This document shows positions 29,344 through 31,996 of a stretch of 64,000 nt of DNA, in pieces. Under the pieces are notes generated by a model that was not told the DNA's origin, did not search any database, and saw only the letters and a list, made by a program, of their open reading frames with translations. Where the stretch lies: NCBI RefSeq assembly GCF_000172975.1, contig NZ_ABTR02000001.1, forward strand, positions 1,402,501 through 1,466,500. The letters run 5' to 3'. Numbering within the stretch: position 1 is the first letter of the stretch; each line of letters opens with the position of its first letter. The position numbers and the translations under genes are program-made. The stretch is from Dethiosulfovibrio peptidovorans DSM 11002. Its GTDB lineage: Bacteria > Synergistota > Synergistia > Synergistales > Dethiosulfovibrionaceae.

Positions 29344-30129
29344 ATGTCGAACAAGAAAAATATCGCTTTATCGCTTATTTGTGCCTCTTTGGCTACTATT
29401 TTTCTCGTATCGGTTGGTTTCTGCTCCAATAGAGATAACTGTATCGCCATAGTCTACACCGAAGCAGATTTTCAGGGTACGTCCTGGGAGATCTACGTGA
29501 CAGGGGAGTACGACCTTTGGTGGAAGATCGACAAGGATGTGGAAAATCCCAGGATGATATTTGACCTCCCCAACGATACCATCGCCTCGATCAGGGTCCG
29601 ACCTGGCTATGAGGTGATACTTTTCGAGCATGCCGAGCTTGCCGGTGATTCACTCGTCCTCGACATCGATGCGCCTTCTCTGGAGGGAAGATGGACTGGT
29701 CAGGCATCTTCTCTGACGGTTTTCAGGATAGAGGACCAGGAGCTTGTGGGAAGGTGGCAGGCCTCGGTCAAGTCCGATTCGACGGAGTTCGCCAAGGGGG
29801 GGATTATGGACAGGGACGAAATCGTCGCCTTTATGGAGGAAAATCGCGAGGGCTTTTCTGAGCTCATAGAGGCTGGGGAAAACCAGTGGTATGACGATAC
29901 CACCGACGAGCAGCGGATAAACGTGGCTGCGTACATGCTAGGACTGTTCGAGGCCCTTGGCTACGACGTTTCCTCCTGGACCCCGAATACCTTTGCCCAG
30001 AGCATCAATAACTTCTACGACTGGAGGAAGGATCTCAGCCTATGGCAGACAGCCTGCTTGGTCCTTAACGTGGATGGGGCAATGTACGAGGAGATCTTCT
30101 CCTCTTCCCGATGTCGTTCTTTGGGTTAG
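29344..30129 (+). CDS. Secreted protein with a beta/gamma-crystallin-like domain
   Basis: A 261-residue protein with a signal peptide (1-27). Residues about 33-130 contain two Greek-key-like halves: IVYTEADFQGTSWEIYV ends with NDTIASIRVRPGYEV, and ILFEHAELAGDSLVLDI ends with GQASSLTVFRI. The aromatic-x6-Gly corner, the G-Y-x-V-x-L-(F/Y)-E centre and the N/D-D-x-x-A/S-S calcium-site positions follow the beta/gamma-crystallin family. The remaining 130 residues are helical (RDEIVAFMEENREGFSEL) with no match I know. I chose the ATG at 29344, eight bases after AAGGA. It is the last gene of the cassette. The domain assignment is by eye but rather specific. Confidence 0.7.
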   Translation: MSNKKNIALSLICASLATIFLVSVGFCSNRDNCIAIVYTEADFQGTSWEIYVTGEYDLWWKIDKDVENPRMIFDLPNDTIASIRVRPGYEVILFEHAELAGDSLVLDIDAPSLEGRWTGQASSLTVFRIEDQELVGRWQASVKSDSTEFAKGGIMDRDEIVAFMEENREGFSELIEAGENQWYDDTTDEQRINVAAYMLGLFEALGYDVSSWTPNTFAQSINNFYDWRKDLSLWQTACLVLNVDGAMYEEIFSSSRCRSLG

Positions 30130-30147
30130 GGACATTCTACAATACCC

Positions 30148-30172
30148 TTGACCTTTTCGATCGAACTGTGGT
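30148..30172 (+). promoter_or_regulatory. Likely promoter of the cysE-cysK transcript
   Basis: TTGACC at 30148-30153 is followed after 16 bases by GGTACT. The -10 box is weak. It stands about 40 bases before the leader peptide start, which is the usual distance for an attenuator. Confidence 0.45.
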
Positions 30173-30211
30173 ACTCTTCGACGAAACATACTTAGAGGGA
30201 GAGATTGAACG

Positions 30212-30265
30212 ATGTATACTCGTTTCATAGACGTTAGCTGTTGTTGTCGGTGGATGCTCGACTAA
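30212..30265 (+). CDS. Cysteine leader peptide (attenuator), 17 residues
   Basis: A short ORF reads MYTRFIDVSCCCRWMLD with three consecutive Cys codons (TGT, 30239-30247) and a GAGGGAGA site upstream. Right after the Cys codons CGGTGGAT (30248-30255) pairs with ATCCACCG (30265-30272); this shares bases with a second perfect stem, CCGCAGTC (30270-30277) with GACTGCGG (30281-30288). A T-run terminator follows at 30364. The next genes are cysE and cysK. This is the layout of ribosome-mediated attenuation: stalling at Cys codons when charged Cys-tRNA is scarce would change the fold and allow cysEK transcription. The mechanism is inferred; peptide and stems are seen directly. Confidence 0.75.
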   Translation: MYTRFIDVSCCCRWMLD

Positions 30266-30363
30266 TCCACCGCAGTCTTGGACTGCGGGGCATATGGCCC
30301 GTTGCGGTCCGGAGACGGAACGTCATCTCTCGACGAATATGCACCTGATCTATCAGGCTTAAA

Positions 30364-30394
30364 ACGGGATCGCCCTAGGCGGTTCCGTTTTTTT
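30364..30394 (+). terminator. Attenuator terminator upstream of cysE
   Basis: ACGGGATCGCC and GGCGGTTCCGT pair over eleven positions (two or three G-U) around a CTA loop and are followed by seven T. An upstream ACGGAAC (about 30316-30322) is complementary to GTTCCGT in the terminator's right arm and could form the competing structure. Confidence 0.85.
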
Positions 30395-30434
30395 CGTCTT
30401 CGACCGCCGGAGTTTTTTTTAGGAGGTTCGATGA

Positions 30435-31073
30435 ATGATAGGCAAGGGTATGGGGTTCGTAGACGCTATAGCGGAGGACTGGAAGGCGGTCAGGAGAAAC
30501 GATCCGGCGTTGCCAGCTGGATGGAGAGGAAAGGGGGAGTTCGTTCTGTGCTATCCCGGAGTCCACGCTCTTTGGCTTTACAGGCTGGCACATGGCCTTC
30601 ACGTCAGCAAAATTCCGGTTTTGCCGAGGCTTATAAGCCACCTTGGCCGTTGGCTGACCGGAATAGAGATCCATCCCGGCGCGACGATAGGAAGAGGTCT
30701 CTTCATAGATCATGGCATGGGAGTGGTCATAGGGGAGACCGCAGAGATAGGCGACAACGTGTCCCTGTTCCACGGGGTTACCCTTGGAGGAAGGGGCGGT
30801 GAGGTCGGAAAACGTCACCCTACTCTGGAGGATAACGTGATCGTAGGTGCGGGAACCCAGGTTCTTGGACCTATAACCATAGGGAAAGGGGCCAAGGTCG
30901 GGGCCGGAAGCGTTGTGTTGGAGGACGTGGCTCCTGGCTCTACCGTGACGGGGGAGCAGGCTAGGGTGAGGGACGGCTCAGGGCCTCTTCTCAGGAGAAT
31001 AGAGGAGTTGGAACGTCGTATTGAGGAGATGGCGCTCCTTTTAGGGTCATCTACTGGGCAGGAGGTCGCATGA
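30435..31073 (+). CDS. cysE: Serine O-acetyltransferase
   Basis: A 212-residue cytoplasmic enzyme that makes O-acetylserine from serine and acetyl-CoA, the first step of cysteine synthesis. The N-terminal helices are followed by a left-handed beta-helix with hexapeptide repeats: [20 protein letters not shown] (substrate-binding His region), [23 protein letters not shown] and [13 protein letters not shown]. The C-terminal tail is longer and helical ([15 protein letters not shown]). AGGAGG stands eight bases before the ATG. The gene follows a cysteine leader-peptide attenuator and overlaps or abuts cysK at its end, so one transcript makes both enzymes. Confidence 0.94.
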
Positions 31074-31996
31074 TGAGCTACAGAGTGGATGAATTGATGA
31101 ACGCGAGGGTTATCGGTAAGACGCCTATGATCGTGGTGCGTCCCTTCGAGGACGGTGCGGAGATAGCCCTGAAGATTGAGGGGAACGGCGCAGGGGGGTC
31201 CATAAAGGACAGGGCCGCCTGGGGGATGCTCCGTCGGGCGGAGGAAAGAGGGGAGCTTTGTGACGAGACCGTCGTGGTGGAGCCCACCTCGGGCAATACC
31301 GGAATAGCCCTGGCCATGTTGGGTCGAGGTCTGGGGCTCAAGGTAATGCTGACCATGCCCGAGTCTATGTCGGTCGAGCGGAGGTCTTTGCTGAAGGCTT
31401 ACGGAGCCGAGGTCGTCCTTACTCCCGCAGGAGAGGGAATGTCAGGGGCCGTCCGAAGGGCGGATGAGCTGGTAGCGGAAATCCCAGGAGCCTTGACGAT
31501 GGACCAGTTTTCCAATCCCGGAAATCCCTGGGCCCATAGGGTGACCACCGGTCAGGAGATACTCCGTGATCTCTGGGGAAGGCGGATAGATGCCTTCGTG
31601 GCGGGGGTCGGTACCGGCGGTACCTTGACCGGAATCGCCGAAGCCTTCAGAGGGGCAGGTCGTTCTGTTTCGGTGGTCGCTGTGGAGCCTAAGGGAAGCT
31701 CCGTACTGTCCGGTGGCCGTTCCGGTTCTCACGATATTCAGGGCATCGGAGCCGGCTTCGTTCCCAAGGTCCTGGATGTCGATTTGATTGATGAGATCGT
31801 CGCAGTAGACGACGAAGAGGCGAGGGATGGAGCCAGGCTGCTGGTCTCTCGATGGGGTCTCCTCTGCGGAATATCCTCCGGGGCAAATCTCCACGCCGCT
31901 GTGGTGAAGGCCAGGGAGATCGGCCCCGAAGGTTTGGTGGTGACGGTTTTGCCCGACAGAGGGGAGAAGTACCTCAGCACGGGGCTTTTCTCCTAG
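31073..31996 (+). CDS. cysK: Cysteine synthase (O-acetylserine sulfhydrylase)
   Basis: A 307-residue PLP enzyme that converts O-acetylserine and sulfide to cysteine. The PLP lysine is Lys45 in GGSIKDRAAW. Also present are the substrate loop PTSGNTGIALA, the phosphate-binding GTGGTLTGIAEA and the C-terminal GISSGANLHAA. An ATG at 31070 overlaps the cysE stop; the ATG at 31073 is seven bases from AGGAGG and is preferred. Length matches CysK/CysM. It ends against the convergent DUF502 gene, whose stop overlaps its own, and no terminator is visible between them. Confidence 0.94.
   Translation: MSYRVDELMNARVIGKTPMIVVRPFEDGAEIALKIEGNGAGGSIKDRAAWGMLRRAEERGELCDETVVVEPTSGNTGIALAMLGRGLGLKVMLTMPESMSVERRSLLKAYGAEVVLTPAGEGMSGAVRRADELVAEIPGALTMDQFSNPGNPWAHRVTTGQEILRDLWGRRIDAFVAGVGTGGTLTGIAEAFRGAGRSVSVVAVEPKGSSVLSGGRSGSHDIQGIGAGFVPKVLDVDLIDEIVAVDDEEARDGARLLVSRWGLLCGISSGANLHAAVVKAREIGPEGLVVTVLPDRGEKYLSTGLFS

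Follow-up and report, generated by a model that had tools for sequence, protein, structure and literature searches.

The cysE–cysK operon of Dethiosulfovibrio peptidovorans DSM 11002 is very probably (about 0.9) under the control of a ribosome-mediated transcription attenuator whose signal is charged tRNA-Cys. We infer that a short leader open reading frame (ORF) is translated, that the outcome depends on the charging of tRNA-Cys, and that transcription is terminated ahead of cysE in vivo. An attenuator of this kind had been proposed in the initial annotation of the region. It was supported at the sequence level by the conservation of the Cys codons, by mutually exclusive helices, by a terminator that separates leader and cysE in 48 of the 49 relatives tested, and by a predicted fold that changes when the ribosome stalls.

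Organization of the leader

The window, a contiguous stretch of 64,000 nt, contained the following features.

30148–30177, + strand: candidate promoter, with TTGACC at 30148–30153 and an extended −10 element TGG-TACTCT at 30169–30177 (18-nt spacer)
30195–30203, + strand: Shine-Dalgarno-like sequence GAGGGAGAG of the leader ORF, identified from the sequence and conserved in congeners
30212–30265, + strand: leader ORF of 17 codons, MYTRFIDVSCCCRWMLD*, read from the sequence
30239–30247, + strand: Cys codons TGT TGT TGT, codons 10–12 of the leader ORF, the proposed sensor
30248–30272, + strand: hairpin 1:2, arms CGGUGGAU (30248–30255) and AUCCACCG (30265–30272), immediately 3' of the Cys codons
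30270–30288, + strand: hairpin 2:3, perfect, arms CCGCAGUC (30270–30277) and GACUGCGG (30281–30288)
30280–30310, + strand: hairpin 3:4, putative anti-antiterminator, 30280–30291 paired with 30297–30310, loop containing CAUA
30297–30310, + strand: segment 4, candidate antiterminator strand and 3' arm of hairpin 3:4
30315–30321, + strand: ACGGAAC, alternative antiterminator proposed in the initial annotation, complementary to GUUCCGU at 30382–30388
30361–30394, + strand: intrinsic terminator, stem 30361–30374/30378–30391, loop CUA, seven T at 30388–30394
30435–31073, + strand: cysE, serine O-acetyltransferase
31070–31996, + strand: cysK, cysteine synthase A

The expectation that the downstream genes make cysteine was borne out, as both proteins passed curated cut-offs (CysE, TIGR01172, 221.5 bits, cut-off 210.65; CysK, TIGR01139, 367.1 bits, cut-off 350.95). 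The two genes overlap by 4 nt. The candidate promoter was read from the sequence and is kept in four congeners (L003, L005–L007); it was not reported by a consensus scanner and is therefore a weak candidate.

The 17-codon ORF was present as annotated, with its three TGT codons directly before a hairpin. The 3' arm of this hairpin overlaps the second, perfect hairpin, with which it shares CCG (30270–30272). The terminator had been described as an 11-bp stem followed by seven T; the T run was found, but the stem is slightly longer, with 12 pairs, including two G-U, and a further two A-U pairs formed with the U-run. It was also detected independently by a terminator scanner (two sites, 0.4 expected) and lies approximately 45 nt before cysE. 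The leader folded more stably than all 200 shuffled versions (z = −3.93). Just past the terminator, CGUCUUCGACCGC (30395–30407) is complementary to GCGGUCCGGAGACG at 30304–30317, and the genus has mostly retained it; this pairing would form on read-through RNA only. The whole element occurred once in its own genome (2,576,359 bases, three contigs), in which TGYTGYTGY alone occurred 130 times.

Conservation of the Cys codons

The upstream DNA of 59 CysE-type loci (E below about 1e-55) from 188 Synergistota genomes was examined. A leader ORF containing three or more Cys codons in a row preceded 49 of these loci, including two accepted after inspection by eye (L117 and L126), and a further seven had CC, CxC, CxCC or CCxC leaders (L009, L010, L011, L027, L123, L124 and L134), giving a Cys-run leader in 56 of 59, although the loci are mutually related and the counts are not independent. 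The three loci with no Cys leader were L029, and L112 and L113, both from outside the order. In a comparison set of 80 cysE loci, the sole CCC match was the locus of Acetomicrobium (L043), itself a synergistote; none of the 79 loci of other phyla had a CCC leader. A search for related DNA in phage records found none. Conservation in relatives had been set as the test on which the attenuator could fail, and the Cys codons were kept.

Between families, the Cys run is the only part that the leader peptides have in common (CCCRW, CCCMEG, CCCCTA, CCCGRR). Its codons vary synonymously between TGT and TGC: 28 leaders had TGTTGTTGT, eight TGCTGTTGT and seven TGTTGCTGT, with other combinations in the remainder. 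Since the run changes synonymously and the peptide around it diverges, the pattern points to selection for the amino acid that is read.

The same comparison bears on the identity of the sensor. A nascent CCC peptide that responds to cysteine, sulfide or some other small molecule might itself stall the ribosome; the sensor would then be the peptide rather than the charge of the tRNA, and the sharing of CCCRW by several families fits such an arrest peptide. We consider it quite improbable: the remaining peptide is fully diverged, leaders with no more than CC or CxC exist, and families whose RNA stem is different (CCCMEG, CCCCTA, CCCGRR) do not keep RW. The RW codons, CGGUGG, form the 5' arm of hairpin 1:2, and this double role explains why RW is retained.

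In four loci (L114, L115, L135 and L138), another reading frame rich in Cys (MPMESDCPYAC.., VESGCGCC..) lies between the terminator and cysE and is in frame with cysE; in L008 it is out of frame. It may extend the N terminus of CysE with Cys-rich sequence, or it may be an additional leader.

Mutually exclusive helices and covariation

Helices 1:2, 2:3 and 3:4 are mutually exclusive. Each was assessed in an alignment of 18 diverged leaders, with 500 shuffles per helix, and each was retained with covariation. Standard pairs occupied 90% of cells for helix 1:2, 96% for 2:3 and 88% for 3:4, and the covariation scores were matched by 3, 0 and 0 of the 500 shuffles, respectively. When the helices were slid by one to three columns as a control, 26–66% of cells were paired.

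The loop of hairpin 3:4 contained YAUA in 36 of 49 leaders, versus 12% of random folds (30290–30298 in the window), and the motif recurs across families whose 3:4 stems differ. Speculatively, YAUA could programme a pause of the polymerase or be contacted by a protein; the attenuator would then have a dedicated second input, for timing or sensing, and the phylum would have one conserved Cys-codon sensor serving at least two outputs. We regard this as unlikely. If true, the outputs would be an intrinsic terminator before cysE and something else before cysK. Pairing of the 3:4 loop with a downstream AUAUGC, as a pseudoknot, was considered and rejected, as L005 does not keep it.

Stall-dependent folding

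For folding, the leader of the window was taken as far as the terminator loop, and the bases under the ribosome footprint were blocked. Without a ribosome, hairpins 1:2 and 3:4 formed with probabilities of 0.99 and 0.94 and the antiterminator with 0; with a ribosome at the stop codon, the values for 3:4 and the antiterminator were the same. When the ribosome was placed at any one of the three Cys codons, helix 2:3 reached 0.81–0.84, compared with 0 when it was not stalled, and CCCGUU:AACGGG reached 0.67–0.79. Alternative-structure folding, a check suggested in the initial annotation, thus gave helix 2:3 and an antiterminator on stalling at Cys, and otherwise 3:4 with a free terminator. When the middle region was shuffled 300 times, a difference between stalled and unstalled states as large as that of the window arose twice.

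Across 48 loci, the terminator 5' arm became more sequestered on stalling in 30 and less so in 4, which, the loci being related, indicates a direction rather than a probability. The simple fold failed to separate the states in three distant loci (L013, L015 and L024), and the stall folds of L007 and L115 went the opposite way. The fully transcribed terminator won at equilibrium in every ribosome state (0.97); the decision must accordingly be a kinetic one, made during transcription. Known attenuators likewise decide during transcription.

We propose the following mechanism. RNA polymerase would make the leader, and a ribosome would follow through MYTRFIDVSCCCRWMLD*. With ample Cys-tRNA, the ribosome would pass the three Cys codons, reach the stop codon and cover segments 1 and 2; segment 3 would then pair with 4, leaving the 5' arm of the terminator (segment 5) free, and the 5:6 terminator would form and stop transcription before cysE. 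With scarce Cys-tRNA, the ribosome would wait on the Cys codons and cover segment 1, allowing 2 to pair with 3. Segment 4 could then pair with the terminator 5' arm, and the polymerase would read through into cysE–cysK. Without translation, 1:2, 3:4 and 5:6 would form and transcription would stop.

Identity of the antiterminator

Segment 4 can pair with the terminator 5' arm in two registers: CCCGUU (30298–30303) with AACGGG (30363–30368), or GCGGUCC (30304–30310) with GGGAUCGC (30366–30373). Since segment 4 is also the 3' arm of hairpin 3:4, this pairing ties directly into the helix chain. The initial annotation had instead assigned the role to ACGGAAC. Its complementarity to the right arm of the terminator is real (30315–30321 with 30382–30388), and the divergent congener L007 keeps part of the match. 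We consider segment 4 with the 5' arm the more probable antiterminator, because the terminator 3' arm is transcribed last and the ACGGAAC match is reduced in L007.

A test in which terminators were swapped between families was weakly positive overall (own mean −13.5 versus −10.8 kcal/mol, median rank 0.26) and backed the 5'-arm pairing in families f4g13, f10, f5 and f4g18. In the genus of the window, however, this pairing was no better than pairings with the terminators of other families, and ACGGAAC with the 3' arm ranked better. The helix chain is well supported, while segment 4 with the 5' arm and ACGGAAC with the 3' arm are each one option for the exact antiterminator.

Relatives with cysK first

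In a clade in which cysK lies ahead of cysE, a CCC leader precedes cysK in five of six loci, which indicates that the leader goes with the first gene of the operon. The leaders of these cysK-first operons (L189–L193; e.g. MRNHRITISILEAVCCCRPFTF*) have the conserved ending CCCR(P/F). The hairpin chain is absent from the cysK-first loci. The almost unstructured region 3' of their CCC leaders suggests that this clade uses a different output, perhaps translational or Rho-dependent control.

Control of this type, as in mycobacterial poly-Cys ORFs, could also be imagined for the window leader, with the hairpin near 30361–30391 a minor contributor. The cysK-first relatives, which have the CCC leader but lack the hairpin chain, and the mycobacterial Cys leaders predicted without terminators (PMC1262725) would be in keeping with it. 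It is nevertheless very improbable here, given the strong terminator with seven T in the window, the terminators in nearly all relatives, and a cysE ribosome-binding site (near 30421–30427) that lies outside the exclusive helices. The terminator-based attenuator remains our reading for cysE–cysK.

Other leaders in the genome

Upstream of trpB, the same genome encodes a WWWW leader, MTDNSMLCWWWWT*, with hairpins and a terminator after it (L229, about 1478–1519; G000:C1 near 1544500), and Trp-run leaders with hairpins and a terminator also precede trpB in two congeners (L182 and L183). This lineage therefore uses codon-run attenuation as a device. Like the Cys leader, the Trp leader has a codon run, a hairpin directly after it, a further hairpin and a terminator; it differs in its Trp codons and in preceding trpB. 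The congeners' Trp leaders were weakly matched by the Cys covariance model (25–27 bits). Additional hits of this model were set aside: those in G004 and G003 were real Trp leaders before trpB, reading another amino acid, and those in G002, G008 and G010 looked like chance matches within other sequence and were dropped.

Three T-box-like elements (L231–L233) were located at G000:C1 2499257–2499441 (−), 713657–713890 (−) and 1349881–1350125 (+), below the gathering score with E values of 1e-14 to 1e-17, and adjoin thrC, lysA and dapA genes. Taken with the Trp leader, they suggest that this genome has two devices for reading tRNA charging.

The presence of T-box-like elements elsewhere in the genome, the highly structured leader and the conserved YAUA loop of hairpin 3:4 raise the question of whether the leader is a metabolite riboswitch or a T-box, the short ORF being incidental. 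Rfam, searched at the gathering threshold in the window and at relaxed thresholds, returned nothing at the leader. Likewise, the T-box model RF00230 had no match in the window at the gathering threshold, nor in 29900–30700 at E values up to 5. In addition, the conservation of the Cys run is at the codon level, with synonymous substitutions. The probability of a riboswitch or T-box is, in our estimate, close to negligible.

If charged tRNA-Cys is the signal, as we propose, tRNA charging would set cysteine synthesis in these sulfide-producing anaerobes. The element would be a cysteine control element covering most of a poorly studied phylum and is apparently undescribed; a search of the open-licence literature found no description of a cys attenuator in Synergistota. 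Its approximately 50 diverged natural versions offer material for testing the co-evolution of leader, pairings and terminator.

Comparison with known attenuators

The enteric his attenuator works by a six-segment logic, and the trp and leu attenuators are related to it in kind. The window leader resembles the his attenuator in that its ORF carries consecutive codons for the amino acid that the operon produces, and in its alternating and mutually exclusive hairpins and its intrinsic terminator before a biosynthetic operon. It differs in the amino acid (cysteine), the operon (cysE–cysK), the phylum (Synergistota) and the YAUA loop that recurs in hairpin 3:4; a sequence relation is not expected.

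The initial annotation considered a peptide attenuator of these genes uncommon. For cysEK combined with an intrinsic terminator this is correct, but known examples of leaders with Cys codons exist in mycobacteria and, ahead of cysS, in Rhodobacterales. According to PMC13236596, which cites Canestrari et al. 2020, leaderless short poly-Cys ORFs act as cysteine-responsive attenuators of cysteine genes in mycobacteria; PMC13236596 terms this control translation attenuation. The mycobacterial Cys leaders were predicted without conserved terminator hairpins (PMC1262725). The window leader is like them in placing a run of Cys codons in a leader ORF ahead of cysteine genes, and unlike them in its Shine-Dalgarno-like sequence and its intrinsic terminator, the latter shared by 48 of 49 relatives.

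In Rhodobacterales, uORFC-8-2 precedes cysS and combines a tandem-Cys upstream ORF, hairpins and a terminal U run, for which ribosome-mediated attenuation has been proposed (PMC8632094). This alphaproteobacterial leader lies before a Cys-tRNA synthetase gene and has a two-stem consensus with Cys near codons 14–15. Compared by description, the window leader precedes cysE–cysK, has its Cys at codons 10–12, and falls outside uORFC-8-2. The Synergistota element joins a known kind of Cys-codon, ribosome-mediated attenuators, and would add cysEK with an intrinsic terminator to the operons under peptide attenuation.
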